38,310 bases of DNA from a virus: positions 1 to 38,310 of IMG/VR virus record IMGVR_UViG_3300017749_001886; one strand, written 5' to 3'. Under the pieces are notes generated by a model. That model was not told the DNA's origin. It did not search any database and was given only the letters and a program-made list of their open reading frames with translations. This document shows, piece by piece, positions 934 through 37,666 of this stretch. The translations under genes were made by a program, and so were the position numbers. Each line of letters starts with the position of its first letter. Within the stretch, counting starts at the first letter, position 1.

Positions 934-941
934 TATTTATT
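934..941 (-). promoter_or_regulatory. late-promoter-like box (one mismatch)
   Basis: AATAAATA on the minus strand differs from the late box TATAAATA at the first base. It overlaps the stop codon of the upstream gene and lies about 50 bases before the ATG at 883 of a virion-type gene. A chance match is possible in such AT-rich DNA. Confidence 0.3.
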
Positions 942-1467
942 AAAAACCTAATCTCTTGAGCTGGGAAATAGTGTTAGAAGCAGAAATATGTAATATACCA
1001 ATGCCCCCAGCGGCCTTAAATTGATCGACATTTTTAGGATAATCGTCAATTAAGATTGCAGGTTGTCTTTTATCATCGCTACTTTTCATGGCAAAGTCCT
1101 TCTTTTCTCTACGCCTCACTAAGTTTATCATAAAATTTTGCGTATACCCTAAATTTTTTCTTAACCATTTCATTTTACCTGGTTTACAATTAGGATCTTC
1201 AATCGTGTATGCAGATAAGATATGCGGATTATATTTCTTAATATAATTCCAAAGTTGTTTACCATCTCTCATCCAAGGCATATTTGCCCAAAAGTTTTTA
1301 GTATTTCTTATCGTCTTCCAATGTTTATCAGACTGATCTTGGGTAAATGTTGTGCCTGTTGCCTTTCTTGAAGCAACCATAAAATCAGCTAAGACACCAT
1401 CCATATCACAGTAGATACGAGGCAAATCTCCTTTTGCCTCTCGATAAAGAATTCGATAGTCTTTCAT
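940..1467 (-). CDS. HAD-superfamily phosphatase (5'-nucleotidase-like) with possible capsid-targeting leader
   Basis: 175 residues. HAD motif I is DMDGVLAD at 21-28 (nucleophile D21, acid/base D23), and the late Asp motif ILIDDYPKN lies near 138-146. The length and layout fit the 5'-deoxyribonucleotidase type C/YqfW-like group, which hydrolyses (deoxy)nucleoside monophosphates; the substrate here is inferred. The first ten residues MKDYRILYRE sit ahead of the HAD fold and resemble the T4 internal-protein leader MKTYQEFIAE, with Glu at position 10. The gene is last in a run of genes with similar leaders, so virion packaging is possible. It starts three bases after the stop of the upstream gene, with AGGA as ribosome site. 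Confidence 0.75.
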   Translation of the reverse strand: MKDYRILYREAKGDLPRIYCDMDGVLADFMVASRKATGTTFTQDQSDKHWKTIRNTKNFWANMPWMRDGKQLWNYIKKYNPHILSAYTIEDPNCKPGKMKWLRKNLGYTQNFMINLVRRREKKDFAMKSSDDKRQPAILIDDYPKNVDQFKAAGGIGILHISASNTISQLKRLGF

Positions 1468-1470
1468 AAA

Positions 1471-2073
1471 CTATCCTAGATTAGAAGTAGGTACTTTCGT
1501 TCCGTCAGAATATTGACCTACATCAACATCTGGATCAACATCTACTTTAGTTTTACCACCAACCTTCATTTCTTTTTTCTTTTTCTTGACATCGGGCATA
1601 GGCGTATCCTTGTCAAGAAGAGCTTGTGCAATACCAGTTCTTAAAGGAACTTCTCCAGTATCTTTATTAGGTTCAGGTTTTACAGTTTTATTCTTTTCGT
1701 TTTCTAATTCAATTTTTAAAAGTTGAATTTGATTTTTTAAACTTTGTATATCATCTTTACCTTTATCTTTGGATGATGCTGAACGAGAACCTCTATTACG
1801 ATTAATGTCGTCAAAATCTTCAGTTGTAGTTGAAGGTACTAAAAGATAATCTCGTAGTTTATTCATACTGTTTGCCGCAATTGCAATCTTATTCATCCAC
1901 CAACTTGGTAAATCACCTTCTGGATTCATACCTTGAAGTTTAGATAACATTTGAGAAGCGTCCTCTATTGCTGTTTTACATTGTCTAACAGCAGAGGAAA
2001 CATCAGTATGCCCATCTTCTTTTAGTTTACTAACCTCTCTAAGAGCTTCAGTAAATGTTTTACTGTATTTCAT
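1471..2073 (-). CDS. conserved phage protein of unknown function with head-leader-like N-terminus
   Basis: 200 residues. The N-terminal half contains DGHTDVSSAVRQCKTAIEDA and LPSWWMNKIAIAA, a helical segment I recognise as recurring in marine phage proteins without a known function. The middle (about 105-130) is a short coiled-coil-like stretch (SLKNQIQLLKIELENEKNK). The C-terminus is Lys/Asp-rich. It begins MKYSKTFTEALREV, where L11-x-E13 fits the T4 prohead protease cut rule. The gene is packed between a HAD gene and a Cys-rich protein gene, with AAGGA before the ATG. A prohead core or internal protein role is inference. Confidence 0.55.
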   Translation of the reverse strand: MKYSKTFTEALREVSKLKEDGHTDVSSAVRQCKTAIEDASQMLSKLQGMNPEGDLPSWWMNKIAIAANSMNKLRDYLLVPSTTTEDFDDINRNRGSRSASSKDKGKDDIQSLKNQIQLLKIELENEKNKTVKPEPNKDTGEVPLRTGIAQALLDKDTPMPDVKKKKKEMKVGGKTKVDVDPDVDVGQYSDGTKVPTSNLG

Positions 2074-2081
2074 ATTTTTCC

Positions 2082-4349
2082 TTAGTCAGTTTTTTTAGTT
2101 GAAACAGATTTCAATACTGCTGCTTCTAATGAACCTTCTTTTGTCGGCAAGTATTTTTCATACTGAGCTGTAATTTTTTTCTTATCATTCATTTGTACTT
2201 TTTTCATAGCATTCATCATTTCTTTTCCAGCGTCTTTCATAGCATACATAGGATTAGCGTCTTTCATAGCATTCATTCTTTTCTTAGCAGTTTCTTTTTT
2301 CATCATTTCGTCTTTTTTCATCATCATCGCCTTCATCATTTCCATGCTTGGTGTTTCTGTATCGTCATTATTTTTTGCCATGTCCATTTCCATTTTCTTC
2401 ATCGCTTTGATGTCATCGTTGGAATGTTTCTTAATCATATCCTGTTTAGGATCTTGCATAGTCATAGCATTCATTTTCTTTGGATCAGTCATAGCTTTAA
2501 TCATTTCTTTTTTCATTGGTGACATTTCAGCCATTTCAGCAACATCTTCTGTTTCTTCTTTTTTCATCTTCATTTCTTTTTTAGGTTCTTCACCTTTTTC
2601 TTTTTTAGAAATTGCGATTGCTGCCTGTTGTGCAGGTGAAACTGCTTCTTTTTTATCGTCTTTAGTTTCGCCTTGTTTTTTAAGAATTGCTTTTTGTAAA
2701 GCAGGTGGTAGTTTCTTTTGTCCTGCTGTTAGTCCTTCTTCTAGACTATCAACATAACTAAAGAATGCTTTTTGTTCTTCTACCGACTCTAATTCGTCTA
2801 GGGAGTTAATCCCAAGTTCTTCCATAGCCGCGTTGAAGTTATCTTTATAAGATTCGTTCATTTCGTTCTCTCCCTTTATTAAATTTTCTGCAACACCTAG
2901 TTTCTTTTTAACCATGTTTGTTGCGGTTGCAAATCGTACACTATCGCCATCTTTACCATATCGTTTGATAAAATCATTCTTAGGTAAGTCATCTGCTTTT
3001 TTGTGTACCATTTTAATTTGTGTTTTAGTTAAGTCTGCTTCGTCTGCAATATCTTTTTGTAACTGTTTAGCCTGTTTATCATGTGCCTTAACTGATTTCT
3101 TTAATTGTTTTATGATAGGTTCAATAGTTTCTTTATCTTTACTATCCAGGTCTTCATTTGCCATTTTTAAAGCAGCAGCAACATCTGGGTGTTTAGATAG
3201 ACCTCTTACCATTTTCTCTATTTCTTTTACAGCACCAGTCATATTACCTGCCATCTTTTTTGCAATCTCTTTTGCTTTAGTAATTTTATTTTCTTCTAGA
3301 TTTTCTTTTAATTTGTTGTAATACTTACTGACTAAAGAATCTCTTGTTCTTTGATCTTCTCTAGAAATATGACCTTTCATATTATGTCTTGCATTTATAG
3401 CATCAATTTTCATTTTTTCTGCTGATGTGCCAAACATATCTACAACTTTTTTTGCATTTAATCCGTGTTCGTTATCGTTTTCATTGTTTTTGAAATCTTT
3501 TTTAGTAAACTTTTCTTCTAAAAAGTTAAATTCTATTTCTTCTTTACTTACATCAAAAGAAGTCCAGTCACCAGTTTTGATTGCATGGTCGAGTTTCTTT
3601 TTCATTATAGCATTTGTAGCAGCATTACCTAAATATCTTCTTCTACCTTTATCGTCAAACCAGCCTTGTTTAGTTTTGTCGTATTTAACTTTTAATGCTT
3701 CTTCTAAAGAATCACATATACATTCTTCACCACCACAGCACTCATGTACTTTACCTACTTCTGGAGTTGCACATTGACACTCTCCGCCATTGCAAGTAGG
3801 ACAATCAGGATCTTCAAATAATTTTTCTTCTGGTACACAATTAGGTACTTGTTTACCACCTTTAGTTTTCATACCAACTTGTTTAAATCCTGTCCAACAT
3901 GCCTCGCATTGTAGTTCGTCTGCTTCTGCCATGTCTAATGGTTCTTTAAAGTCTGACCATTTCTTACCTCTTTTAATAACCAGTTCTGATTTTGCAGCAG
4001 TTGAAAGAAAAGGTATATCACCTTTTGCTAATTTCATAAGCATATCAGTTGAATACTTTTTCAACATAGTATTCATTTTATCAATAGCGCCAACAGGTAA
4101 TCTTTTACCTTTTAGAGGTTCGTATTCTTTTTTAAGTTTTGTTATTTGAGCAGAAGTAAATTCTGTAAGGTCATCATTAACTTGAGTTGATTCAGCTTGC
4201 ATCCATCCCTTTGCCTTGTAAGTTGGCCAATCAGACTTATCTATAACTATAACTTTATTGTTTTTGACAACCTTTAAATCAACTTTAGGATCTCTAAATT
4301 GTCTTGCTTCCTGCAAGGATTCTCGCATTGTCTTAAAATATTTTGTCAT
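2082..4349 (-). CDS. large Cys-cluster, Met/Lys-rich phage protein, candidate internal head protein
   Basis: 755 residues of unknown function. Visible parts: a leader-like start MTKYFKTMRESLQEA with possible cut sites at MRE (8-10) and LQE (12-14); a cysteine cluster at 148-212 holding 11 Cys, including CEAC, CPTC and CQC, likely a metal-binding knuckle; charged helical segments; and a low-complexity tail (about 590-720) dominated by Met, Lys and Asp, with repeats such as MKDANPMYAMKDAGKEM. The segment CWTGFKQVGMKTKGG followed by VPNC is familiar from marine phage proteins annotated as hypothetical. Its start overlaps the stop of the upstream gene (ATGA). A role as a prohead-core or packaged protein is inferred from the leader and basic composition. 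Confidence 0.5.
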   Translation of the reverse strand: MTKYFKTMRESLQEARQFRDPKVDLKVVKNNKVIVIDKSDWPTYKAKGWMQAESTQVNDDLTEFTSAQITKLKKEYEPLKGKRLPVGAIDKMNTMLKKYSTDMLMKLAKGDIPFLSTAAKSELVIKRGKKWSDFKEPLDMAEADELQCEACWTGFKQVGMKTKGGKQVPNCVPEEKLFEDPDCPTCNGGECQCATPEVGKVHECCGGEECICDSLEEALKVKYDKTKQGWFDDKGRRRYLGNAATNAIMKKKLDHAIKTGDWTSFDVSKEEIEFNFLEEKFTKKDFKNNENDNEHGLNAKKVVDMFGTSAEKMKIDAINARHNMKGHISREDQRTRDSLVSKYYNKLKENLEENKITKAKEIAKKMAGNMTGAVKEIEKMVRGLSKHPDVAAALKMANEDLDSKDKETIEPIIKQLKKSVKAHDKQAKQLQKDIADEADLTKTQIKMVHKKADDLPKNDFIKRYGKDGDSVRFATATNMVKKKLGVAENLIKGENEMNESYKDNFNAAMEELGINSLDELESVEEQKAFFSYVDSLEEGLTAGQKKLPPALQKAILKKQGETKDDKKEAVSPAQQAAIAISKKEKGEEPKKEMKMKKEETEDVAEMAEMSPMKKEMIKAMTDPKKMNAMTMQDPKQDMIKKHSNDDIKAMKKMEMDMAKNNDDTETPSMEMMKAMMMKKDEMMKKETAKKRMNAMKDANPMYAMKDAGKEMMNAMKKVQMNDKKKITAQYEKYLPTKEGSLEAAVLKSVSTKKTD

Positions 4350-6790
4350 TGTAATTGATTCCTCATTTTTACAAGTGTTTTATTAAGTTCTTCTTTCCAA
4401 CTTTCGCCGTATCGTTTCTTATATTTATCTATTGTATCACCTTCATTGGCAAATTTTTCAATATCTTTTTCATCTATCTTCATAGTGTATCGTCTAAAAT
4501 TCTGTATCGGTTGACCTGGTGTCATTGACATAGTGTGATGAGCAGACTGATCTGTACCTATTTCATAGTATTCTAGTAGTCCTACTCTAGTTAAAACATC
4601 TTGAAACTCACGATATCCAACTCCAACTTGTCTTGCTATATCTGCAGCAAGTCCATATTTGTCTTTAAATACACTGGCAGACTTCATTGATTGTTTGAAT
4701 AGACTGATACCTGTTTGTACTGCCTTACGATCAACTGTTATACTTTTTAAGTAATCAGTCATTTTACCACCTGGTAGTTGAAATTCTTTAACAAGTTCGT
4801 CTATAATTGAATCTTCTTTCTGCATTTCTTTTGTTTTCTTTTTCATCTGATCAATATATGTACGATATATCTTTGCTTCAGCAGACTTACCCATCTCTTT
4901 TGCTCTTTGTTCCATTGCAACAGCAGCTTGAATTTTGTGGGCGTGTGTCTTACCTGAATTTTTTATCTTGTTAACACTTGCTCTTGCAGTTTCTACATCT
5001 TTGAATCCTAGACCGTGTATTGTGCCTTTTGGATTCTCGTCTGTATATAAGTCAGAATGTTTATCTGAACCTGCAGGTTGACCTTTCTTTCTAGGTATTC
5101 TCGGTGCCTCATCTAAAGTTTGAATATCATATAACCATGCCTTCTTAATTAGTCCGTCACAATCATATGATACATAATTAGAACCTCGTCTAATAATCAT
5201 ACCTTTAGAACCATCCATATGTTCTACCATATCTCCAATATTAAATATTTTCTCTTGATGATATTCTTCTCGTAAATCGTTATTAATAAAGTTAGTAAAA
5301 CTTTCTACTCTCTCATTAATACCCATTCCTTTTTTAACCGCATTGAATAGTGCCTTACTATCTGTAGCAGATAGACCTTCTACACCTAATTTGAAGTTTC
5401 TATAATCATCATTCTTTGCCATCTCTCTCATTTTACTTGCACTCATACCAGCAACACCTTCAGCGTCAGGATCTCTTTCGCCAGATGATACAACTTTGAT
5501 AGATTTATAATTGTAATCTGTACCATTGTATTTGTCTGCAAGTTTTTGAAACTCATTAATTCTATCGCTACCAGCAATCATAATAATTTCACCATACATC
5601 TTATCATAAAACTTTAGTATCTCCATGAATGTTCTTTGTGTACCTCCAGCAGCCTGTATCTTATTCTGTGGAAACATCTTTTTCATAAATTTAACTTTAG
5701 TTTTTACATCTAATGGATTCTTTCTTTTGTCAGTAGAGGCACTAGCATAAACAATGTGATTAGCATTATTCTTTCGGGCTTGTGTAATCACTTCTTTCAT
5801 AAGTTTACCGTGGCCAGTAGTAGGAGGGTTAAACCTACCAAAAGCGAAAATCAGTTTGTTGCCTTTATCTAATGCCTCGTTGACTGCCCTAGTTTTACTT
5901 TGGGCATGTTCGTTTCGTAATGAATCTATTTCAGCATCTGAAACTTCTCCATCATCTAAAATCTTTTTACATTTTTTATAGAATGTTAGATAGTGATATT
6001 TCTCTAACATTTTGTATATAACATTTTTAGGTAGTCTATTCTTAATACCAAATGTTCTAATCTCGTCTGGTGTCATATCGGTATCAAATGCTGATCTTCT
6101 TTCAGCGTCAAGTAAATCACCCATATCAATTATATCTTCTAAACTGTTTTGTATTTCTTTTACTTTTAAATCGAGTCTATCTTTTAGATTTGTAACCTCA
6201 TTAGGTTTTAATTCTGTTAGTTCATCATAGTCAATTATATCTCTTTTTAATTCACCTTTAACAACATCTAATTCTTGTACTTTCTTTTCAAAGTCTTTAA
6301 TATATAAATCTATATCAAATACAAAATCTTCTGGTCGTTTGATAAACTTATTACCTCTAATATCAAATACTGCATCCGCCTTAGCATTTTGATCTTCGTA
6401 AGTTTTCTCGTCTGTAATAAAATAGTAGTTGACAGGATGTTTACTGCCTGGTATTTCTTTACCTTGAATATTGTCTGGATTTTTAGAAGATAAAAACTTT
6501 TTAGATAATCTTAATCTTTCATCTTCTGCCTTATCACTTGGTACATCAAATAAAACATTGATATCTAAGTCAGCGTCATTTCTATATCTCTTTGTAAGAA
6601 TAGAACCTATCAATGCAATTCTGATAACAGGATACTCTATTTCAAATTCTTTAATCTGATCTTCGATCATATCTAGTACTGATTGTTTTATTTTAGGATC
6701 TGAAGTATCAGCGTCATCAAATACAAGAGGAGCATAGGTACTTCTAGGAATATCAATAATAGATTCTCTTAACTGTTTAAATGTTTTCAT
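4346..6790 (-). CDS. fused nucleotidyltransferase and cytidylyltransferase/NMNAT-like protein with capsid-leader-like N-terminus
   Basis: 814 residues, multidomain. A pol-beta-type nucleotidyltransferase domain shows GS at 62-63 and DADLDINV at 72-79 (metal-binding Asp pair). A second catalytic domain begins at 317 with FGRFNPPTTGHGKL, the T/HxGH motif of cytidylyltransferases and nicotinamide-nucleotide adenylyltransferases, and has GMSASKMREMA (about 447-457), like the ISxTxxR motif. The C-terminal third carries segments shared by marine phages (GDMVEHMDGSKGMI, and a helical KIQAAVAMEQRA stretch) and ends near a TDQSAHHTMSMTPGQ motif. The start MKTFKQLRESI contains L7-R8-E9, a prohead-protease-like site. 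It overlaps the adenylate kinase gene by 14 bases. The substrates are unknown; NMN adenylylation is one option. Confidence 0.65.
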   Translation of the reverse strand: MKTFKQLRESIIDIPRSTYAPLVFDDADTSDPKIKQSVLDMIEDQIKEFEIEYPVIRIALIGSILTKRYRNDADLDINVLFDVPSDKAEDERLRLSKKFLSSKNPDNIQGKEIPGSKHPVNYYFITDEKTYEDQNAKADAVFDIRGNKFIKRPEDFVFDIDLYIKDFEKKVQELDVVKGELKRDIIDYDELTELKPNEVTNLKDRLDLKVKEIQNSLEDIIDMGDLLDAERRSAFDTDMTPDEIRTFGIKNRLPKNVIYKMLEKYHYLTFYKKCKKILDDGEVSDAEIDSLRNEHAQSKTRAVNEALDKGNKLIFAFGRFNPPTTGHGKLMKEVITQARKNNANHIVYASASTDKRKNPLDVKTKVKFMKKMFPQNKIQAAGGTQRTFMEILKFYDKMYGEIIMIAGSDRINEFQKLADKYNGTDYNYKSIKVVSSGERDPDAEGVAGMSASKMREMAKNDDYRNFKLGVEGLSATDSKALFNAVKKGMGINERVESFTNFINNDLREEYHQEKIFNIGDMVEHMDGSKGMIIRRGSNYVSYDCDGLIKKAWLYDIQTLDEAPRIPRKKGQPAGSDKHSDLYTDENPKGTIHGLGFKDVETARASVNKIKNSGKTHAHKIQAAVAMEQRAKEMGKSAEAKIYRTYIDQMKKKTKEMQKEDSIIDELVKEFQLPGGKMTDYLKSITVDRKAVQTGISLFKQSMKSASVFKDKYGLAADIARQVGVGYREFQDVLTRVGLLEYYEIGTDQSAHHTMSMTPGQPIQNFRRYTMKIDEKDIEKFANEGDTIDKYKKRYGESWKEELNKTLVKMRNQLQ

Positions 6791-7385
6791 TTTCTATACC
6801 TTTAATAATTTTATCTGCAATATCTTCTGGATCTGCACCTTCTGCTTTTATCTTTAAGAATGTTTTATTAATATCATCTGAACTGTCTTTTTCTAATTGT
6901 CTTAGAACTGGACCAGTTTCTTTTTCATACACACCTATTCTATTCTTAATAATTTCTGGTTTATCATCTTTTCTACCACGAGCAGATAATCTTTTAATAA
7001 CTTCTTTTTCTGATACATCAAGAAAGACAACATAGTCATAATTTATATTTTCTTTTTTCATTATAGATAACTGTTCTGAATTTCTAGGAAATCCATCAAG
7101 TATGTAACCTTTTTCTGTATCAGGTTTATCTAGTCTATCTTGTAATGCTTTCATCACATATTTTATAGGAACTAGATTGCCAGAGTCCATAATCTTTGCA
7201 ACTTCTGGATTTGTTTTTTGTAATTCCCTCATCATATCGCCTGTATAGATATGAGGTATATTAAAATGTTTACTTATATATTTTGAGTAAGTTGATTTAC
7301 CAGAACCAGGACCACCAATCATTATGATACGAGTCATAATGGTATCAATCTCAATCGCTTCTAGAAATTGTTTTAGTGTTTTCAT
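6777..7385 (-). CDS. adk: adenylate kinase with capsid-leader-like N-terminal extension
   Basis: 202 residues from the ATG at 7383-7385, which forms a TAATG overlap with the upstream stop and has AAAGGA nearby; the longer TTG start is less likely. The Walker A is GGPGSGKS (24-31). The NMP-binding segment YTGDMMREL, the substrate motif GFPRN and an Arg-rich region (LSARGRKDD) mark a short-LID adenylate/UMP-CMP kinase, which interconverts NMP and NDP using ATP. About 18 residues precede the kinase fold and begin MKTLKQFLEA, close to the T4 head-protein leader. Bacterial Adk usually starts directly at the P-loop strand, so this extension is unusual. Confidence 0.85.
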   Translation of the reverse strand: MKTLKQFLEAIEIDTIMTRIIMIGGPGSGKSTYSKYISKHFNIPHIYTGDMMRELQKTNPEVAKIMDSGNLVPIKYVMKALQDRLDKPDTEKGYILDGFPRNSEQLSIMKKENINYDYVVFLDVSEKEVIKRLSARGRKDDKPEIIKNRIGVYEKETGPVLRQLEKDSSDDINKTFLKIKAEGADPEDIADKIIKGIENENI

Positions 7386-8617
7386 TATCCTTTTACCCAA
7401 TCTTTTGCCATCGTAAAGTTAGCACGACTAAACTCTAATCTATCTACAAGTTTAACTGCACCACTCTTTTTGATTGCAACATATCCTTCTGGATTTGTAA
7501 CTTTATATCCATTCTTCGTTCTTAAAAATGAACCGATACTTTGTATTTTATTTAACTTATTTAATAATAAAGACTTTGCCGTTTGCATTGTAATATAAGT
7601 TGCAACTGCAAAATACAATCCATCTCTATTTGGTCGTAATATCTTCATACCCACTTCAAGTATTTCTTCATACTTTTGTTTAGTGGCAGCTGTTTTCTTA
7701 CTATTTATTTCTTTTTTTAATCTATCTCTAAAATACACTTCAAAATTATTTGCAAGTGCTCTAGTGTTCTCAATCTTTTGACCTTGTCTTATGTATGTAT
7801 TGAAAAATGTTTTAAGTTGTACACCAAGAGATAATGGTCCTTTATCTTTTTTAAGTTTATCAATAAATGCACCTGCCTTGTAAGCAGAACCTTCTGCCAT
7901 TTTAATAACATTATCGAATGACGCTTCTTCATCTGAACTAAAACCCGGGTCTTCAACTTGTTTATAACTAGCGTCATCAAAGAATACATTTTTATTTTTT
8001 CTTAAAGAACCAACACTTGCACCAAAACTTGCACTTAGTCCTTTCATTGTTTTACCTGAATATGAAGTGTGAAAGATAATACCAATCTTTGCATTTTTGA
8101 TATTGGTATACATAGAACTACCAAATAGTCCAGTCTTAACTACTGGTACTGCATATGTGATTGTATTAGGAGTAAATATGATTGAAGGTTGTCCGCCAAC
8201 TTTTGCCATCTTCTTATCACCACTAGTGAAAAGTAAATCGCCTTGAAGAACACCTTTAATACCAAGTGATGGAAAATACTTTAGTGCTACTTTTAATTTA
8301 TCTGCAAGAGCGCCACCGTGATTACGAGATATATCAGAATTAGTATAGTTGATTTTAGGAGTTGCGTTGAATATAGATTTAGTGCCGACAAAGAACTTAC
8401 CATTTTCAGGATTTATACCAGCAAATATAGCAGGTGCACCATCCCATTTGACGGAGACATTTGACCCACCAGATCCGCCTTGCAACATCTTTTTAACAGA
8501 CTTTAAAAACCCTATTGAATTTCTTGCACCAATACTTCCATTATTTATTATTTCGTCTTCCAGATGTTCAAGATGAGTATTCTTACCTTCGGTAAGATAT
8601 TCTTGAAACCTTTGCAT
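7385..8617 (-). CDS. KxDG-motif ligase-like nucleotidyltransferase with T4-type capsid-targeting leader
   Basis: 410 residues. KWDGAPAIF at 57-65 matches motif I (KxDG) of ATP-dependent DNA/RNA ligases and capping enzymes; GVLQGDLLFT and IIFHTSYSG could be later motifs. I place it near the DUF6267-type phage proteins; ligase activity is not proven by sequence. The first ten residues, MQRFQEYLTE, align position by position with T4 MKTYQEFIAE (aromatic-Q-E-aromatic-L/I-x-E), the best leader in the window. It is the first gene of the leader-bearing block. Its own gap holds both a host-type promoter and a TATAAATA box (8653-8688). The ribosome site is GGAAAGAG. Confidence 0.65.
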   Translation of the reverse strand: MQRFQEYLTEGKNTHLEHLEDEIINNGSIGARNSIGFLKSVKKMLQGGSGGSNVSVKWDGAPAIFAGINPENGKFFVGTKSIFNATPKINYTNSDISRNHGGALADKLKVALKYFPSLGIKGVLQGDLLFTSGDKKMAKVGGQPSIIFTPNTITYAVPVVKTGLFGSSMYTNIKNAKIGIIFHTSYSGKTMKGLSASFGASVGSLRKNKNVFFDDASYKQVEDPGFSSDEEASFDNVIKMAEGSAYKAGAFIDKLKKDKGPLSLGVQLKTFFNTYIRQGQKIENTRALANNFEVYFRDRLKKEINSKKTAATKQKYEEILEVGMKILRPNRDGLYFAVATYITMQTAKSLLLNKLNKIQSIGSFLRTKNGYKVTNPEGYVAIKKSGAVKLVDRLEFSRANFTMAKDWVKG

Positions 8618-8652: not shown

Positions 8653-8688
8653 TATTTATATTATAACATATTTCAATCGGAAAGTCAA
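8653..8688 (-). promoter_or_regulatory. tandem early and late promoter for the leader-bearing block
   Basis: The minus strand shows TTGACT (8683-8688), a 17-base spacer and TATAAT (8660-8665), directly followed by an exact TATAAATA late box (8653-8660) sharing one base. Host polymerase and the phage late sigma could both use this gap. T4 internal-protein genes are likewise expressed before and during head assembly. Confidence 0.75.
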
Positions 8689-8706: not shown

Positions 8707-9888
8707 TTACTTAGCAATCACGAATTTACCCGATAATGGTGTTCTAGAGGTGATATATTCAAACATCAATTTTAAAAATTGATTCGCCTTGTCTTTCGGA
8801 TTATTTTTAAAAAATCTTTTAAGATCAGGCATTATAGCATTTATTATATAGATCGCACTTATAGCACCTCTTTCAAAATCAAATCTCTTTTTATCTTTTC
8901 TTAAATACTCTATTTTTTCTAACGCTTTAAAATACTTCTTTTCTCCTGCCTCATAGTCTGCTAATATCTTTCTTGCTAAAGCAGGATCTACAAATTTTAA
9001 TATTTCACAAAAAACTTTTATAGAACCAATAGATCCTCCTCTTGCTTCTGCTTTATCAAAAATAGCTTCAGCAACAAATCTTTTAGCAGAGGGATCATGT
9101 CTTAATTTTATCTCGCCACCAGTTTTTAAAAATATTCTCATATCTCTTGTTTCTGCTTTTTTTCCATATTTCACTTTTTTATATGGTTTCCAATCCGTAA
9201 CATCTTTTATAGATATATTTTTAATTATTTTTATTTCATTTTTTCTATCGAAATTAACTTTCTGTAATCTAACATCTGTTTTTGTAACTTTTTTTAAAGA
9301 CAATGGTAGTAAATCGCCACTATCAATTAAATCAGAGGTTACAATATTTAAATCTTGAAATGTATATACTTTAGGTTTTGCGTTTTTTAGTTCCTCTGAT
9401 ATTATTTTTTTTGCTTTATTACTCGCTAAATATATATCTGCAGGACTCCATTTATTAACATTACCAAATTTTGCTTGAGATTTATATCCTGATTTATTTG
9501 CTATTTTAAATAGACCCTCAATATTACCCATTACATCATCATCGCCACGCAAGTAAAATAGTTTTTGAAATCCTTTAGCAGCAATACTTAAATCAGGATC
9601 TATTTTATTAATATCATTTACTAATTTTTTTGCAATAAGAATAGAAGATGTATACCAAGGTATATCATTATTTAAAAAATTTTCAATATCAGATGAACTA
9701 ACACCCGGTGTTTCAATTCTTTTGAATGATTCTTTTAATGTTTTTGCACCAACGACTGATCTAAATGAAGTATAATCTTTATACTTTTTAGTATCGAAAA
9801 TTTTATTAGTTTTTGTCGCACCTATATAGTCTGCAATTGCACAAAATAGTGCCTGCGAACTTTCTGCTAATGCTGTTCTATCTGCCAT
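8707..9888 (-). CDS. conserved T4-like phage protein of unknown function, predicted leaderless mRNA
   Basis: 393 residues. The start MADRTALAESSQALFCAIADY and the segment AKFGNVNKWSPADIYLAS (about 140-157) recur in marine T4-like phages, where I know the family only as hypothetical or possibly structural. Predicted mostly alpha/beta, with many Lys in the C-terminal half and no catalytic motif I can name. The ATG at 9886-9888 is only seven bases from the -10 box (9896-9901), so transcription should start at the A of ATG. No Shine-Dalgarno sequence precedes it and the next in-frame Met is far downstream. L7-A8-E9 could be a prohead-protease site, but the start is otherwise unlike the head leaders. 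Confidence 0.6.
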   Translation of the reverse strand: MADRTALAESSQALFCAIADYIGATKTNKIFDTKKYKDYTSFRSVVGAKTLKESFKRIETPGVSSSDIENFLNNDIPWYTSSILIAKKLVNDINKIDPDLSIAAKGFQKLFYLRGDDDVMGNIEGLFKIANKSGYKSQAKFGNVNKWSPADIYLASNKAKKIISEELKNAKPKVYTFQDLNIVTSDLIDSGDLLPLSLKKVTKTDVRLQKVNFDRKNEIKIIKNISIKDVTDWKPYKKVKYGKKAETRDMRIFLKTGGEIKLRHDPSAKRFVAEAIFDKAEARGGSIGSIKVFCEILKFVDPALARKILADYEAGEKKYFKALEKIEYLRKDKKRFDFERGAISAIYIINAIMPDLKRFFKNNPKDKANQFLKLMFEYITSRTPLSGKFVIAK

Positions 9889-13749: not shown

Positions 13750-13778
13750 ATTATACAATATTTATACGCCATTGTCAA
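13750..13778 (-). promoter_or_regulatory. near-consensus host promoter for uvsX, with TATAAATA in the spacer
   Basis: TTGACA (13773-13778), exactly 17 bases, then TATAAT (13750-13755). The -35 overlaps the last codons and TGA of the methyltransferase gene (GCTTGACA). The spacer contains an exact TATAAATA (13759-13766), which may be a second, late start or chance. Confidence 0.85.
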
Positions 13779-15082
13779 GCAAAAAATTCATCTAAAGTTG
13801 CTTTTCTAGAATATCTAAACAAGTCTAAATCTTTGTCGCCGAAGCACCAGACATTCTCGATAAACATTTTATTCATATTCTCATCTAGTTTCTCTTTACT
13901 AAAGTTACCATCTTCATCTTTGAATACTGCCTTACCTTGTGGGCGTTGCATAATTCTCATACCGATTTGACCTAAGAATTTATCTTTCAGATGATTTACT
14001 AATTCATCGCCAGAACGATATCTTGTACCTTTGATTTTAGGATCCATAATATTACAGAACATAAATCTAGATACTTTCATACTTTTTTCTGCAACTGGTA
14101 AATAGAAATCATCACGCCATTTCTCATACTCATTGAACTTAAACCAAGATTGATTTTCTTCTAACTCACCACCTTTGTTATATTCTTCGGTAGAGAAGTA
14201 AGGCGGACTTGTAAATGCAACATCTATTGCTGGTAGTTTATCATAAGGTATATCCTCTGCACCACAATTCCATATCTGAACTTTCTTAGGTTTAGGTAAT
14301 AGTTTATTATAAGTAGAAATCTGTTCTTGATATCTTTGATATGTATTTGGATTAGGATCACAACCATAGTATTCTTCAGCATCGCTGGCAAAGAAACCTG
14401 CAAGTCTATCACCCCAACCACAACTTGTATCGAGAACTCTTTTAGCGTCTGTAATATCATAGATTGCTTTTGCAACTACTGGTTTAAATTGTGTTGCAAT
14501 ATATGTACCTAATCTAAACGCTGATATATAACTCTTTTCATTCAACTCACCACCGATCAATTCTTCTTTACCCTCGATCATAACTTTCTGAACACCATTG
14601 ATACCACGCCAGATAGGACCAAAACACTTCCAGATATCTTTTGCTGTGCCATTCTCCCATACTTCTTTCGGTGCTCTAAATCCATAACTACCACATTCTA
14701 ATCTCAAGTCTTGATGAAAATAATTTGATACATCATTAAATGTACTAGCACCATTTATCAGACCAAGACCATATTGTGAATATGGATATTCATAGTCATC
14801 ATATTTTTCATAGACTTCTTTTTCGATTTGCTCTTGTGGAATACAGATTGTATTAGTATTAAACTTCTTTAATTTACCGAAACTATCTCGCATATCATCA
14901 TACGAAATTTCTTTCAAAGGAAATACAGGTCGTTCAGTTGCTATGTATTCAGCAAGGGTTTCTCTAAAGATTTCTTTACCGTACTGAGCGTTCAGTAATT
15001 CAAACGACTTGTTATCTAAGATAGGTAGTTTACCGTCATTAGCGGCGTCTAGAAGGCGTTTATATAGTGTTTTATCGACCAT
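13775..15082 (-). CDS. DNA methyltransferase (TSPPY amino-MTase) with large N-terminal domain
   Basis: 435 residues. Motif I (SAM binding) is VLDTSCGWGDR at 216-226, followed by an acidic strand end YYGCDPNPNTYQRY. Motif IV is TSPPYF at 291-296, typical of N6-adenine/N4-cytosine methyltransferases that act on exocyclic amino groups. The N-terminal 200 residues, without a known motif, may be the target-recognition part. The same arrangement (PSMGYGGR then TSPPYF) is found in the 360-residue protein at 29620-30702, so the two look like distant paralogs. Ribosome site GGGAG. The target sequence is unknown; no cognate restriction enzyme is adjacent. Confidence 0.85.
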   Translation of the reverse strand: MVDKTLYKRLLDAANDGKLPILDNKSFELLNAQYGKEIFRETLAEYIATERPVFPLKEISYDDMRDSFGKLKKFNTNTICIPQEQIEKEVYEKYDDYEYPYSQYGLGLINGASTFNDVSNYFHQDLRLECGSYGFRAPKEVWENGTAKDIWKCFGPIWRGINGVQKVMIEGKEELIGGELNEKSYISAFRLGTYIATQFKPVVAKAIYDITDAKRVLDTSCGWGDRLAGFFASDAEEYYGCDPNPNTYQRYQEQISTYNKLLPKPKKVQIWNCGAEDIPYDKLPAIDVAFTSPPYFSTEEYNKGGELEENQSWFKFNEYEKWRDDFYLPVAEKSMKVSRFMFCNIMDPKIKGTRYRSGDELVNHLKDKFLGQIGMRIMQRPQGKAVFKDEDGNFSKEKLDENMNKMFIENVWCFGDKDLDLFRYSRKATLDEFFA

Positions 15083-17698: not shown

Positions 17699-18745
17699 TT
17701 AATTATTCCACACTTCACGATTTTGTAGTTTTACGAGAATCTTCTCGACTATACTACCTTCAGTTTTTAATGCTTCTTCAATACCGATTAAACCTGGCGT
17801 TGAATTAACCTCAATAAAATGTGGACTATCTTTTTCTCTATTCTTTGCAGGAATAAAATCAACTCCAACAATCACACCTTCAACTGCCTTGGCAGCTCTA
17901 AGTGATTCTTCTGCCTCTTTAGCAGTAAGTTTATGTGTCGTTGGTTCAGAACCTTGTGATACATTACTTCTAAAATCACCCTCAATAATAGGTCGTTTCA
18001 TTACACCTATGATTTCTTCACCACAGATAATTACTCTTACATCATACTTTGTTGGTAGTTTCTCTTGTAGAATAATATCTATGAATTCATTTTCTCTATA
18101 CAATAACTGTACGATTGATTGGCAAGAAGCAGCACTCTCTACTAGAATAACACCAACACCTCTTGAACCAGAACCTGTTTTCAAGATGATAGGAAAATCA
18201 CTATCTAATTCTTTTAGTGCATTTTCTGATCCTTCTGAATGTAATACACGAACTGTTTTAGGTGTGTTTATTTTATTTCTCTCAAAGATAATCTGATTCA
18301 TCCATTTGTCTGAACATATATCATGGCATTCTGCTGAATTGATAACTGCAAAACCTCTATGTTCAAGGTCTTTTGTCATAGCATACCAAGAACGATTACC
18401 ACTTACACCAGGAGTACCTAATCCTCGTATCATTATGATTGTATTTTTAGCATCAATCTCAAATGGTTTATCGTAAACAATATCTTTTTTAGGATCAGGT
18501 TCTGCAACTGCACCACCTTTTTCAACAGGAAAACTATTCATGTATAGTTTATCATTTTCTTCACTAACAAAAGCACCTATGAACTCGGCAAGTAATACTT
18601 TAATGCCTAGTGCTTTAGCTTTCTCTCTTATTAGATCACCTGTCTTATTAGGGTCGTCAGCGTCATCATGGGAAAGTATAACCAAACGATATGGTTCTTC
18701 TACTTTCTCCTCAGAAATAAATTCTTTAAACTTCGGTGCCTTCAT
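17699..18745 (-). CDS. RimK-like ATP-grasp ligase with capsid-leader-like N-terminus
   Basis: 348 residues. ATP-grasp enzymes join a carboxylate to an amine via an acylphosphate; RimK adds glutamates to the C-terminus of ribosomal protein S6. Visible: an N-terminal Rossmann-like part; FPIILKTGSGSRGVGVILVES (ATP-binding Lys and Gly loop, in pieces FPIILKTGS and GSRGVGVILVE); LQEKLPTKYDVRVIICG; and metal-binding HFIEVNSTPGL near the C-terminus. The start MKAPKFKEFISEE contains E-F-I-S-E, matching E-F-I-A-E of the T4 head leader shifted by two residues. It sits between regA and the polymerase gene, where T4 has no such gene, and overlaps regA by 20 bases. The protein substrate is unknown. Confidence 0.8.
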   Translation of the reverse strand: MKAPKFKEFISEEKVEEPYRLVILSHDDADDPNKTGDLIREKAKALGIKVLLAEFIGAFVSEENDKLYMNSFPVEKGGAVAEPDPKKDIVYDKPFEIDAKNTIIMIRGLGTPGVSGNRSWYAMTKDLEHRGFAVINSAECHDICSDKWMNQIIFERNKINTPKTVRVLHSEGSENALKELDSDFPIILKTGSGSRGVGVILVESAASCQSIVQLLYRENEFIDIILQEKLPTKYDVRVIICGEEIIGVMKRPIIEGDFRSNVSQGSEPTTHKLTAKEAEESLRAAKAVEGVIVGVDFIPAKNREKDSPHFIEVNSTPGLIGIEEALKTEGSIVEKILVKLQNREVWNN

Positions 18746-19157: not shown

Positions 19158-19540
19158 TTTGTCCCACCTTTGAATAACTTTTCTTTAATTAATTTAATTT
19201 GTTCCTTGGTGAGTATATCAAGAGCGGACTTTGCCTTCTCATTATTATATCCATAATACTCTTTTACACACTCAATGTCTTTCAATTTAGACGCTCTAAG
19301 AAAAGGACTAAACCTCTTCTTCGCTCTAATACTATTTAGTAGAAATTGGAATTGCATATCTTTATCTAAGAAGTGATTACGATTTACTTCATTAGCAAGC
19401 ATTACAGTATCAGAAAAACCTGATAATATCTTATTGACTATAAATGTAGGATACTTTTTGACCCAGTCTTTATCTTCTGAATCCATTAGATTCTTCTTTG
19501 TAAAGTTTATAGCATTTAAATATTCTTTTAATTCATACAT
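19154..19540 (-). CDS. 62: clamp-loader small subunit, T4 gp62
   Basis: 128 residues. With gp44 it forms the ATPase that loads the gp45 clamp. The sequence (MYELKEYLNAINFTKKNLM, KYPTFIVNKILSGF, ANEVNRNHFLDKDMQFQFLL) matches the marine T4-like gp62 pattern, shorter than T4 gp62 (187). It has no ATPase motif, as expected for this subunit. The start overlaps the stop of the methyltransferase gene by one base (TAATG). In T4 gp62 directly follows gp44; here a methyltransferase gene and a tRNA lie between. Confidence 0.9.
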   Translation of the reverse strand: MYELKEYLNAINFTKKNLMDSEDKDWVKKYPTFIVNKILSGFSDTVMLANEVNRNHFLDKDMQFQFLLNSIRAKKRFSPFLRASKLKDIECVKEYYGYNNEKAKSALDILTKEQIKLIKEKLFKGGTK

Positions 19541-20316
19541 TATAATATCTTTGTTATTTTTTCATTTGCAAACTTACAATAATCTTGATCTATCTCACAA
19601 CCAACATAATCTAAATTATAATGTTTAGCAACAACAGCTGTTGTACCTGTTCCCATAAATGGATCGAACACAACTCCTTTTTTCAAACCAGATACTTTCA
19701 AACATTTCTCAACTAAAGTTTCTGGATAAATTGCTGGGTGTTTATTGCTACCTGCAATCTCTTTTGTTATCTCTTTTGTTGCTTTACTTTTGTATGTAAT
19801 ATGCCAACAATTTGTAGTTGCTCTATAATTTTTACCACTTCGTTTTGCATTTCTTTCTGCATTATTATAATCCTCATTGTAAGGTACACCCGACCATTCT
19901 ATATCGATAGGTGTATTACCATTCTTTGTAAAATGAAATAAATGTTCCCAACCATTTTGCAAATATCTTTTACTTGAATGTGGTGTGCTATAACCTCTTA
20001 CTCTACCATCAATCTCTACTGCCTTTGCCCATATAATATTATTCTGTAATAGCCATGGCACATTTTCTGCAACTTTATATGTATCAAAAGGATTGTCTTT
20101 AGAATATCCTAAATTTAAAAATAAATGACCATCTGGTTTTAATACTCTACAAACTTCACTCCATACATCTTTCATCCACTCTATATAATCAACTCTTGTA
20201 TCCTCATATTTACTATATCTAACTCCTAGATTATACGGTGGACTAGATATACAAACATCAAAAGATTCGTCTGGTGTTGTTTCTAAAAATTTTAAACAAT
20301 CTATATTATGTATCAT
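19540..20316 (-). CDS. DNA methyltransferase (SSPPY, N6A/N4C type) inserted between gp44 and gp62
   Basis: 258 residues. The catalytic motif SSPPYN is at 24-29 and the SAM-binding motif DPFMGTGTT at 218-226. This order (catalytic first) is that of the beta class of amino-methyltransferases such as CcrM-like and restriction-associated enzymes. GWEHLFHF and HPAIYPETLVEKCLK are also typical. The gene follows the tRNA-Thr by nine bases and has no strong ribosome site. Its placement, with the tRNA, inside the otherwise conserved clamp-loader operon suggests later insertion. The target sequence is unknown. Confidence 0.9.
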   Translation of the reverse strand: MIHNIDCLKFLETTPDESFDVCISSPPYNLGVRYSKYEDTRVDYIEWMKDVWSEVCRVLKPDGHLFLNLGYSKDNPFDTYKVAENVPWLLQNNIIWAKAVEIDGRVRGYSTPHSSKRYLQNGWEHLFHFTKNGNTPIDIEWSGVPYNEDYNNAERNAKRSGKNYRATTNCWHITYKSKATKEITKEIAGSNKHPAIYPETLVEKCLKVSGLKKGVVFDPFMGTGTTAVVAKHYNLDYVGCEIDQDYCKFANEKITKIL

Positions 20317-29619: not shown

Positions 29620-30702
29620 TTACTTTTGAAAGATAAAAGTAGGTTCAAATTTACGACCTGTAATATCAGGTCTAGTAAATTCACCCATATATTGTTGCTT
29701 TTGTTTGGTTTCTTGTATATCACCATCTATTGTTGATACAGCAGAACCCCCTTGTTGAGTCGATAATGATAACCACCAAGTGTCTGTATGTGTGAAACCT
29801 ACTGATTTTGCAAGGGAAACTGTATCCTCTTCAAATGTCTTATATTGTTTAGTGTTAGCAACATTCAATGCTAAGTACTTACCGTCCCTAAGACCCTTAT
29901 ATGCGTTGCTAATCGTCTGTTTTAAGAACATTTCTTTCCATGTATCAGAGGTTTCGAACTTGATACTTGACTGTTCTGGTTCATCACCGTATGCTTCCCA
30001 ACCGAAGTAAGGTGGACTTGTAAATACAAAGTCTAAAGATTGCTCTTCTGGAATGTATGTTTCACTACCTTGTCTTAATAGTGTATATGACTTATGAGAA
30101 TGACCGTATAAATCTCGTATCTGCTCTAACCCTTCATATGTAGGTATACAAGGATCAGTACCGATATAGTTTACACCTGCAGCGATTGCCCCTAGTAAAC
30201 GACCACCATAACCCATACTTGGATCCCATACTGTACCTGCTTCGGTACCTTCAAGTGGACTGTCTTTATCAACAAAGATATCATACATGGCAGCCGCAGC
30301 CGTAGGTCTAAAATTAGATACCATTTGAGTACCTGAATATCGTCTTAACATAGACCTCATATCTGAGTCTGTAATTTCGTGTGCTGGTTTTTGTTTGAAG
30401 AAAGTACCACTAAGTATTTTATTGATACCTTTCTTTAGATGTTCTTCATCATTCCATATTTCAATCGGTGTTCTCATCTTACCACACTTGATACCCCAAG
30501 CGTGTTCCATAAATGACCAAGCAAGATTTAATCCATGTGCTGATTGACCTATAATTTTATTTTTACGATCAACTAATGTATCTCGTCTATAATTTACTAA
30601 CTGATTAAAGATATCGTTTCGCCATTTTGTATCTGTAGGATAGTATGGAAAACCTTTGTCAATCCATTGATCATGGGTTTGTTGTAGTATGTCGTCTGTC
30701 AA
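29620..30702 (-). CDS. DNA methyltransferase (TSPPY type), paralog-like to the one at 13775-15082
   Basis: 360 residues. SAM motif WDPSMGYGGR at 159-168, then YIGTDPCIPTYEGLEQI, and the catalytic TSPPYF at 228-233. Motif order and the flanking pattern (D-P/T-S-x-G-x-G-x-R, acidic strand, TY, then TSPPYF) match the 435-residue enzyme near uvsX; both have a helical N-terminal domain of 150-200 residues. The start appears to be TTG (30700-30702) overlapping the previous stop as TTGA, since no Met occurs until residue 65. The target is unknown. It is last in the modifying-enzyme cassette. Confidence 0.85.
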   Translation of the reverse strand: MTDDILQQTHDQWIDKGFPYYPTDTKWRNDIFNQLVNYRRDTLVDRKNKIIGQSAHGLNLAWSFMEHAWGIKCGKMRTPIEIWNDEEHLKKGINKILSGTFFKQKPAHEITDSDMRSMLRRYSGTQMVSNFRPTAAAAMYDIFVDKDSPLEGTEAGTVWDPSMGYGGRLLGAIAAGVNYIGTDPCIPTYEGLEQIRDLYGHSHKSYTLLRQGSETYIPEEQSLDFVFTSPPYFGWEAYGDEPEQSSIKFETSDTWKEMFLKQTISNAYKGLRDGKYLALNVANTKQYKTFEEDTVSLAKSVGFTHTDTWWLSLSTQQGGSAVSTIDGDIQETKQKQQYMGEFTRPDITGRKFEPTFIFQK

Positions 30703-35428: not shown

Positions 35429-37143
35429 TATTCTGCCATCCTTGTAAAGTTTTTATATTTCTCAAATTTCATCACTCTAGGAAATTTGTCTATTAGTGTA
35501 TCACCTTTATGAGATATAACAAATACATTTTCTTTTTCCATTGTGCTGTTTAATATTCTCATAAATTCATCTGTGCCTGAACTATCTAAAGAACTATCAA
35601 ATATTTCATCTAGTATTAATAGATTCGTATTTGTAGAATTCTTTAACTTAGCAATCTCTCGCCAAGTGAATAGTATTGCCAGATCAATTCTTAACTTCTC
35701 ACCCTCACTAAAAGAATGATAGTTAAACACATCACGGTGTCTGGACTTAATTGTTTCATTAAACTCCTCATCAAGAGTAAAGTTAACAAAGAAGTCCATA
35801 TCTGCTAGGTTCTTATTAATATACTGGTTCATTATGGGTAGGTATTGCTTAATGATTTTAGTCTTAATACCAGTATCTTGCATAAGAACTCTAGCAGTAT
35901 CAATATAAAGTTTTTCTTCTTTATATTTCTTTTTATCTAGATCCGCTTGCGTCAGGTTTTCTTGCAGCTGACTTAACTCGCCAGTGGCAACACCTGATGA
36001 AAACTTCTCATCTGATAATTCTTCTATCTCGCTATTAATCTTAGCGATATATTTCTGTATCTCATTTATTGAGGTTTGAAAACGATTGATTAATAACTCT
36101 TGCTCTCTTATTAATACCATCGTATCATTAATCTTTTTCAATCTAGTTTCTGTGGTTGTGATTTCTTTTTCTAGTTGTTGCATGCCACTTTCAATTTCAT
36201 CAACCTTACTTTTTTTCTTATCAATCATTTGAGATTTAAATGCTGAATCTATTGCCTGTTGACAAGTAGGACAATCATCATAAGTTTCAAAGAACTTTAA
36301 ATCTTTCTTATGTTTACTACAAGTATTTTCTAACTTTGCTTCCATTGTATGAAGTTTTTTATATCTCGTATTTACAGCGACCTCATCTAGTATTTGTTTT
36401 TGTAGTTTTGCCTTTTCAATCATAGTGTCATCAATATCTTTTTGATAATTCTTAATATCAGTTTCACTTTTTTTTATATCTAGTTTCTTAGTATCAATGG
36501 ACTCTAAATTATTCTGACTGATTTCTTCAATGTGTTTCTTTTGTGTATCTATTTTACTATCAAGCATTTGATAATCAAAGTCTGCCTGTTTGATAACTTC
36601 ATCTTGTGATTTTTGTTTTTCTCTAAACATTAGGTTCATCTTAGAAAAGATTTCAATGTCTAGTATATCTTCTACAACTTGGCGTCTGTATCTTGCCTTC
36701 AGTTGCATAAATGGTACGAATGAAGCATTACCTAGAATCACAACTTGAGTAAATGATCTAAAGTTTAATTTAAGAATTTGCTGTTCTAAATGTTTCTGAT
36801 AATCTCTAACCGCAGCGTCTTGATTTAGCATATCACCATTACACCATATCTCGAACTTATTAGGTTTGATACATCTGATTATCTTATAATCTTTTTTGCC
36901 GACTGTAAATTCAACTTCAACCACACATTCTTTTTCATTGATTGAATTAATTAATTGATCTTTTTTAATATTACGAAATGGTCTTTGAAATAGACCAAAA
37001 CACAATGCGTCTAACATTGTAGATTTACCAGCACCGTTTTCACCAACAACTAAAGTAGCAGGTGCTCTATCTAGTTGTATCTCTATGAATTGTTGTCCTG
37101 TACTTAAAAAGTTTTTATATCTTACTGTTTTAAATATTATCAA
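35428..37143 (-). CDS. 46: recombination exonuclease subunit, T4 gp46 (SbcC/Rad50-like)
   Basis: 571 residues. Walker A GENGAGKS (34-41); coiled-coil arms; the zinc-hook CPTC (291-294); signature HSFSEGEKLRIDLAI and Walker B LLILDEIFD near the C-terminus. With gp47 it resects DNA ends for recombination-dependent replication and host DNA degradation. The start codon appears to be TTG (37141-37143), with GAGG upstream; the N-terminus (MIIFKTVRYKNFLSTG) aligns with T4 gp46 there, so a later start is unlikely. It overlaps the MT-A70 gene by 14 bases. Confidence 0.94.
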   Translation of the reverse strand: MIIFKTVRYKNFLSTGQQFIEIQLDRAPATLVVGENGAGKSTMLDALCFGLFQRPFRNIKKDQLINSINEKECVVEVEFTVGKKDYKIIRCIKPNKFEIWCNGDMLNQDAAVRDYQKHLEQQILKLNFRSFTQVVILGNASFVPFMQLKARYRRQVVEDILDIEIFSKMNLMFREKQKSQDEVIKQADFDYQMLDSKIDTQKKHIEEISQNNLESIDTKKLDIKKSETDIKNYQKDIDDTMIEKAKLQKQILDEVAVNTRYKKLHTMEAKLENTCSKHKKDLKFFETYDDCPTCQQAIDSAFKSQMIDKKKSKVDEIESGMQQLEKEITTTETRLKKINDTMVLIREQELLINRFQTSINEIQKYIAKINSEIEELSDEKFSSGVATGELSQLQENLTQADLDKKKYKEEKLYIDTARVLMQDTGIKTKIIKQYLPIMNQYINKNLADMDFFVNFTLDEEFNETIKSRHRDVFNYHSFSEGEKLRIDLAILFTWREIAKLKNSTNTNLLILDEIFDSSLDSSGTDEFMRILNSTMEKENVFVISHKGDTLIDKFPRVMKFEKYKNFTRMAE

Positions 37144-37666
37144 ATTTATTTACCTCATTACCAAAGTTATCCCAACCTTTACGAGTCGTTCTTGCAAACA
37201 ATTCTATATAAGGTCCTTCTAACATCTTTTCTATATAACCATACATCTCGTCTGGCTTTCTACTATGTTCTCGTCTTTCTGATACAACCAATTGTCTAAC
37301 TGATTTATCAAATCTTTTTGGTTTACCTCTTGTTGCAAGTAAACACATTTCAGGATTAGATCGTGTCCAGTAACCCATACCTGTAAAATATCCTAAAGAC
37401 TTTTGTTTTGTTTTTACCCAAGTGAAACCTACCGTCTTATAAGTGAAGTTCCAAGATTCCAAAACTTTAAAGGCATCCAATAAACACGGATCAGTAACCC
37501 ACATAAGAAGAACACAATCTTTATCAGCAATACTATCGATATCCATATTACAAATATCGTTAATTGACATACAAGGATAGTGTTGAGTTGCATTTCTGCC
37601 TTCACCTTTTTTAGAATACGATTTAAAATACCATGGTGGGTCTGCATATATTACTTTATATTTCAT
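37130..37666 (-). CDS. MT-A70-family adenine methyltransferase inserted between gp46 and gp47
   Basis: 178 residues. The catalytic motif DPPW (9-12) in KVIYADPPWYF, then FTWVKTKQKSLGYFTGMGYW, NPEMCLLATRG and REHSRKPDEMYGYIE, all typical of MT-A70 enzymes (METTL3-like, bacterial and phage forms methylate adenine in DNA or RNA). It overlaps the gp47 stop as ATGA. In T4 gp47 and gp46 are nearly adjacent, so this is an inserted gene. Confidence 0.92.
   Translation of the reverse strand: MKYKVIYADPPWYFKSYSKKGEGRNATQHYPCMSINDICNMDIDSIADKDCVLLMWVTDPCLLDAFKVLESWNFTYKTVGFTWVKTKQKSLGYFTGMGYWTRSNPEMCLLATRGKPKRFDKSVRQLVVSERREHSRKPDEMYGYIEKMLEGPYIELFARTTRKGWDNFGNEVNKFDNI

Follow-up and report, generated by a model that had tools for sequence, protein, structure and literature searches.

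In bacteriophage T4, the internal proteins IPI, IPII and IPIII share a ten-residue leader (MKTYQEFIAE), of which residues 4 and 7 serve targeting and residues 8 and 10 processing (PMC9026906). T4 also packages an enzyme in its head, the ADP-ribosyltransferase Alt, which is ejected into the host. Proteins that are packaged and ejected with the DNA are likewise described in giant phages (SPN3US, phiKZ) and in P1 (DarA/Hdf), and the prohead proteases of giant phages cleave behind a short motif whose last residue is E. Closest to the present case are the NMNAT proteins of the T4-GC190 family, found in virions of the cyanophages S-SM1, S-SZBM1, S-SCSM1 and S-CREM2. Here we analysed a virus contig of 38,310 nt (IMG/VR record IMGVR_UViG_3300017749_001886, 1-38,310; in the following ‘the window’), in which a block of genes for putative nucleotide-handling enzymes begins with similar leaders. 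We read these leaders as capsid-targeting sequences of the T4 internal-protein type, by which an enzyme cargo would be packaged and delivered with the DNA, and give this reading a probability of roughly 0.85.

The locus resembles the T4 internal proteins in its ten-residue leader with key positions 4, 7, 8 and 10 and, strictly in part of the genes, an L/I-x-E end, in its apparent late expression and in the unrelated bodies found behind one leader; a single profile detects both. Unlike in T4, where the bodies are small basic proteins, the cargo here appears to be enzymatic, more genes are involved, some leaders are offset or shortened, and cleavage is a prediction. With Alt it would share the packaging of an enzyme in the head and its ejection into the host, but we saw no sequence relation, the leader of Alt is another one, and here several enzymes stand in an operon-like block. 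In the case of the cyanophage T4-GC190 proteins, the domain is homologous and the leader the same, and the locus is syntenic, between the primase-helicase and gp61 regions, in most of the four phages, whereas the copy in the window is fused behind a pol-beta nucleotidyltransferase. The giant-phage and P1 systems differ in their propeptides and have no ten-residue T4-type leader.

Leaders in the window and in T4

An earlier note on this DNA had proposed that six consecutive genes carry T4-type leaders. All six minus-strand open reading frames (ORFs) were present with the N-termini that it had quoted (Table 1): those of a DUF6267 protein, adenylate kinase (ADK), a nucleotidyltransferase (NTase) fused to an NMNAT-like domain, a Cys-rich protein, a 200-residue protein (U200) and a HAD-family protein. 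To score them, we built a ten-position profile from 17 leaders of cyanophage NMNATs and from no others; the leader region of this family is part of no gene in the window. P is the fraction of internal Met positions with an equal or better score. The six highest ranks among the 44 ORFs of the window went to U200 (P 0.0005), ADK (P 0.0007), DUF6267 (P 0.0032), a RimK-like ATP-grasp gene (MKAPKFKEFISEE, P 0.0038), the NTase fusion (MKTFKQLRES, P 0.008) and HAD (P 0.023). Thus, five of the six proposed genes are in the top six (P = 3.2e-5). The ATP-grasp gene, which lies far from the block, had been overlooked; we dismissed a chance match there because its leader is conserved in relatives.

Residues 4 and 7 form a hydrophobic or aromatic pair in DUF6267 (F4/Y7), ADK (L4/F7), the NTase fusion (F4/L7) and HAD (Y4/L7), and a shifted pair is seen in U200 (Y3/F7) and in the ATP-grasp protein (F6/F9). 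The proposed L/I-x-E end held strictly in three of the six block genes, DUF6267 (LTE), NTase (LRE) and U200 (LRE, residues 11-13), and also in the ATP-grasp protein (ISE). It deviates in ADK (FLE/A), HAD (YRE) and the Cys-rich protein (MRE at 8-10, with LQE next at 12-14).

The same profile, applied to T4, placed IPIII, IPII and IPI at ranks 2, 3 and 5 of 253 ORFs. The five ORFs that it scored highest among the 202 of a 165-kb relative all belong to the syntenic block (P 3e-7, assuming 12 genes in the block). Across nine genomes and records, 15 of 1738 ORF starts matched a strict leader pattern, compared with 4 of 7116 internal Mets (P 4e-8).

Nature of the proposed cargo

The set would comprise ADK, the pol-beta nucleotidyltransferase-NMNAT-like fusion, an NT5C-like phosphatase (the HAD protein), DUF6267 and probably the ATP-grasp ligase. 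The NMNAT domain of the fusion is 40% identical to the NMNAT of S-SCSM1; by sequence, the fusion had no match among solved structures. Its NTase and NMNAT active-site residues are invariant in 29 relatives and ADK keeps its P-loop and DGFPR motifs, and catalysis by these proteins is therefore likely. For DUF6267, the label ‘ligase-like’ in the earlier note could not be established: no significant sequence or fold match was obtained (no PDB match with E<=0.001), only weak local matches to ligases, next to a conserved and suggestive KWDG motif.

These observations bear on an alternative in which the leader does target the head but the proteins act as scaffold or core filler in head assembly, a role that has been suggested for T4 IPIII, and are not injected as enzymes. 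IPIII does influence T4 head assembly (PMC9026906), and the Lys-rich members at 2082-4349 and 1471-2073 resemble core or DNA-binding proteins. Filler would, however, have no need of the invariant catalytic residues or of the ADK motifs, and we regard this alternative as unlikely.

Virion proteomes, processing site and late promoter

The evidence for an enzyme cargo delivered from the head includes proteins of relatives whose presence in particles comes from published mass spectrometry. In S-SM1, purified virions yielded the T4-GC190 cytidylyltransferase (PMC3037559); the N-terminus of this protein reads MKKFSAFLNEA. S-SZBM1_140 (MRFRQFIIEA) was detected as well, while the adjoining leaderless DUF6267 protein is not in the table of that study (PMC9146016). 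The NMNAT of S-SCSM1 (MKSFLQFLKEA) was found in CsCl-purified virions (PMC9602691), and the GenBank record marks six of its neighbours as virion proteins. In S-CREM2, a SAM hydrolase (MKDFDSFLEE), an APH-like kinase (VKRFDAFLTE), a cytidylyltransferase (MKNFSSFLTE), two unknown proteins and Cas9 were detected (PMC10665884). An NMNAT with the same leader is thus present in the particles of all four phages, in agreement with the earlier proposal.

In S-CREM2, only five proteins have the strict leader at the annotated start, and all five are non-structural and virion-detected (P 4e-5); a further match at 149169 was a false start within an annotated gene. The virion-detected Cas9 has RFASFMAEAA close to its start. 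We also observed KTFRDFLN at its C-terminus and, in S-SCSM1, a leader-like C-terminal end (KKRTFKEFLEYIE) in the virion protein SSCSM1_93 (L152 31627-31836). For S-PM2, we found no NMNAT other than a leaderless fusion, and T4-GC190 was not detected in an older S-PM2 virion study (per PMC3037559); such contrasts between studies of differing detection depth are uncontrolled and suggestive. A serine/threonine kinase of S-CRM01 (L412 663-3128) starts MISFDQFLSE and its neighbours MNFSEFLEA, MKKLDQFLTE and MKLFNQFFKE; a kinase is reported in S-CRM01 virions (PMC10665884). The cited cyanophage virion papers name no packaging signal for these proteins, and in the open-licence literature we found no paper linking the T4 capsid-targeting sequence to marine phages, only the T4 review.

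With respect to processing, the pro-region of gp23 in T4 and in three marine phages carries F/I-L-x-E, the same motif as the leader end. It stands at the expected start of the mature protein.

With respect to expression, the gap before the first gene had been said to hold an exact late box and an early promoter, and both were found there: the box TATAAATA and a sigma-70-type promoter matching at 11 of 12 positions, the joint best match on either strand of the first 12 kb. In 83 of 101 distinct relatives, TATAAATA lies <=150 nt upstream of the DUF6267 gene, with 5.1 expected. The raw number of boxes in the window is unremarkable (6, with 8.2 expected) and was dropped as evidence; placement and conservation were retained, as all six boxes lie between genes and in sense orientation (0.7 expected). 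Judged by promoter sequence, late expression of the block is supported.

A leader could also serve to dock its protein onto some other phage structure or onto a host partner, e.g. the membrane or the replisome, and particle detection would then be carry-over, a possibility that the S-SCSM1 authors raise for highly expressed proteins. Set against this are the prediction of virion detection by the leader in S-CREM2, its gp23-type F-L-x-E end, the late promoter upstream of the block and the fact that the same sequence class is a proven head signal in T4. We consider the docking tag highly unlikely.

Modularity and conservation of the leader

To follow the head-targeting interpretation in relatives, leaders were surveyed at about 400 loci, the majority of them in public viral contigs. 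There, ADK begins with M-K-S/T-F-x-x-F/Y-I/L/F-x-E, followed by the usual ADK start RIIMIGGPGSGKS. DUF6267 proteins carry MQRFQEYLTE, MYSFKQYLNE or MNNFNQFLTE, the NTase fusions MKKFKNFLKE or MRFKDYIKE, and the ATP-grasp proteins PKFKEFISE. A second class, M[ST][RK]Y.[KE]TM.EA, occurs on many proteins related to the Cys-rich one. In the HAD family, the leader is confined to a close group and many relatives begin directly at the IYCDMDGVL domain; all cyanophage DUF6267 proteins examined lack a leader. When the bodies of leader-bearing ORFs were clustered with the leader excluded, 17 clusters resulted, two of which are T4 internal proteins. With one leader on unrelated folds, the leaders are modular.

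The leader also lies outside the folded domains, since PF19782 starts at residue 13 of the DUF6267 protein, the ADK leader precedes the usual start and leaderless HAD homologues start at the domain. In AlphaFold models of two proteins, DUF6267 and the NTase fusion, residues 1-14 have a predicted local distance difference test (pLDDT) score of <50. The comparison with leaderless homologues called for in the earlier note was possible for HAD and DUF6267, and favoured a separate leader; the refutation foreseen there, in which the first 10-20 residues belong to the folded domain, did not come about.

Conservation follows the same positions as in T4. F4 of the DUF6267 leader is invariant in a 41-sequence alignment, and none of the 152 codon differences at this residue changes the amino acid, which indicates constraint at the protein level. 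In ADK, positions 4, 7 and 10 have the lowest entropy, M1 and K2 aside. E10 is the majority residue among relatives, and E9 of the shorter NTase-fusion leader is invariant in 29 relatives. NMNAT column statistics were excluded, as internal Mets from the pelagiphage fusion had entered them. To judge from these alignments, the conserved positions (4, 7, 8 and 10) are those important in T4. It is very improbable that the segments have no targeting role and reflect the first helix of each folded domain or the composition of translation starts (MK-T-F, A-rich codons): MK starts are common among phage genes and the short pattern arises by chance at ~0.06% of internal Mets, but the enrichment at ORF starts, the disorder in the models, the leaderless homologues, the unrelated folds and the constraint on F4 all speak against it.

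Two further leader-bearing families were observed. One, which is widespread and has ~145 aa (MKTFKQHIKEG... VNAFVGSIADKEY), lies close to the HAD gene in many contigs of pelagiphage type (L241, L256, L269 and others). The other is a small protein, MKSYNEFISESVNISGDLNGNLYINS, near cyanophage terminase genes (L122 of Syn33; S-SCSM1 44215-44535), perhaps a direct counterpart of the T4 internal proteins.

Altogether, leader, modularity, conservation and late promoter are demonstrated at the level of sequence. The leaders pass the positional, modular and late-expression tests and have the cleavage motif strictly only in part, and we therefore class the set as a variant of the T4 internal-protein class. 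The T4 system itself is already known; we read as new the variant with a cargo of nucleotide- and NAD-handling enzymes.

Points against head targeting and proposed mechanism

Several observations weigh against the head-targeting interpretation. The Cys-rich protein carries a different, weaker leader, which is not significant with the NMNAT profile (P 0.077) and does not clearly have the hydrophobic or aromatic pair at 4 and 7 (T7), so that the six-gene proposal stands for five genes. A DUF6267 branch (MFSFKGFITSNK; L217, L220, L195 and others) keeps F4 and F7 and has lost E10; cleavage is thus not universal, and this branch would mean targeting without that cut. In the syntenic S-SCSM1 block, some virion proteins have no leader, and hence other routes into the particle exist; the carry-over that the S-SCSM1 authors allow for could apply to part of the CsCl-purified proteins (PMC9602691). 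The nearest isolate, HTVC008M, has no strict leader in a strict pattern search. The gp21 protease (Peptidase_S77) was not found in the 38-kb window, in a search that also failed to match its control and is uninformative; gp21 is present in HTVC008M and in two related contigs. Finally, we found no virion proteome in the literature for this phage or any pelagimyophage.

Nevertheless, the interpretation is supported overall for five of the six genes and agrees with the virion proteomes of relatives. As for how the system may work, we infer targeting, cleavage and delivery as follows. The block would be transcribed late in infection, and leader residues 4 and 7 would draw each protein into the gp22/gp21 prohead core. 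The prohead protease would cut after the [L/I]-x-E-like leader end, and the enzyme bodies would be kept in the head alongside the DNA and accompany it into the cell. There, most likely, the cargo would act at once, ahead of phage gene expression, either on the pools of nucleotides and NAD or on nucleic acid that is damaged. Early repair of nucleotide or NAD pools is the role that we favour as a guess; the counter to host defence suggested in the earlier note may be another. NAD-depleting defences and NAD reconstitution by phages are known.

Genomic context

The gene content indicates that the window is a fragment of a pelagimyophage-like T4 relative, a marine myophage. Chance ORFs aside, its genes lie on the minus strand only and include DNA polymerase, UvsX, primase-helicase, clamp, clamp loader, a CobS-like ATPase and others of the T4-like marine myophage set. 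The DUF6267 protein shares 51% identity with that of Pelagibacter phage HTVC008M, and the DUF6267 gene lies downstream of the primase-helicase, the same placement as in cyanophages. The starts of the six block ORFs overlap or abut the upstream genes, i.e. they are tightly coupled.

Besides the ATP-grasp gene, the earlier list probably missed the neighbouring phrog_1462 gene. Its product, which has no canonical leader and is homologous to a virion protein, suggests a second way into the particle. The Cys-rich protein showed no homology to SSCSM1_92, a virion protein with which it was compared. The 38-kb fragment also holds four methyltransferase-like genes, recognised by eye from TSPPY or DPPW motifs (13775-15082, 19540-20316, 29620-30702 and 37130-37666).

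Table 1. Leader-bearing genes, promoters and a neighbouring gene in the window.
Feature	Position	Strand	Description	Reference
DUF6267 protein	7385..8617	-	PF19782 domain from residue 13; conserved KWDGAPA motif	
DUF6267 leader	8588..8617	-	MQRFQEYLTE; predicted cut after LTE; strict-pattern match	
ADK	6777..7385	-	PF00406; P-loop and DGFPR motif	
ADK leader	7356..7385	-	MKTLKQFLEA; native ADK start is internal MTRIIMIGG	
NTase fusion	4346..6790	-	Pol-beta-type NTase (GS...DxD) fused to NMNAT/cytidylyltransferase-like domain (TxGH, SxSxxR); virion-detected T4-GC190 family	PMC3037559
NTase-fusion leader	6764..6790	-	MKTFKQLRE; predicted cut after LRE	
Cys-rich protein	2082..4349	-	Cys-containing, Lys-rich; CWTGFKQVGMK...VPNCV motif common to cyanophage proteins	
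Cys-rich protein, leader-like	4320..4349	-	MTKYFKTMRE; second class M[ST][RK]Y.[KE]TM.EA; weaker support	
U200	1471..2073	-	200 aa; no assigned function	
U200 leader	2035..2073	-	MKYSKTFTEALRE	
HAD protein	940..1467	-	5'(3')-deoxyribonucleotidase-like; PF06941 NT5C	
HAD/NT5C leader	1438..1467	-	MKDYRILYRE; missing in many relatives	
ATP-grasp ligase	17699..18745	-	RimK-like; outside the block	
ATP-grasp leader	18710..18745	-	MKAPKFKEFISE; offset by two; conserved in relatives	
phrog_1462 protein	8707..9888	-	Homologue of virion protein SSCSM1_90; no canonical leader	
Late promoter box	8653..8660	-	TATAAATA; upstream of block	
Sigma-70-type promoter	8660..8688	-	TTGACT-17-TATAAT	

Implications for marine T4-like phages

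NMNAT, SAM hydrolase, kinase and Cas9 are found in particles of marine phages, and the cited papers name no reason for their presence. A shared leader offers a simple and testable mechanism. We think it rather likely that Kyanoviridae and pelagimyophages share one ten-residue code for head targeting. Its enzyme cargo would be exchangeable (NMNAT, adenylate kinase, nucleotidyltransferases, SAM hydrolase, protein kinases and even Cas9), would be delivered before phage gene expression and could be read from the sequence alone. The leader would then let packaged cargo be predicted from the genomes of some of the ocean's commonest phages. It would also widen the known use of the T4 signal, from small proteins that counter restriction to a kit of metabolic enzymes, which marine T4-like phages probably carry ready-made into the cell with their DNA.
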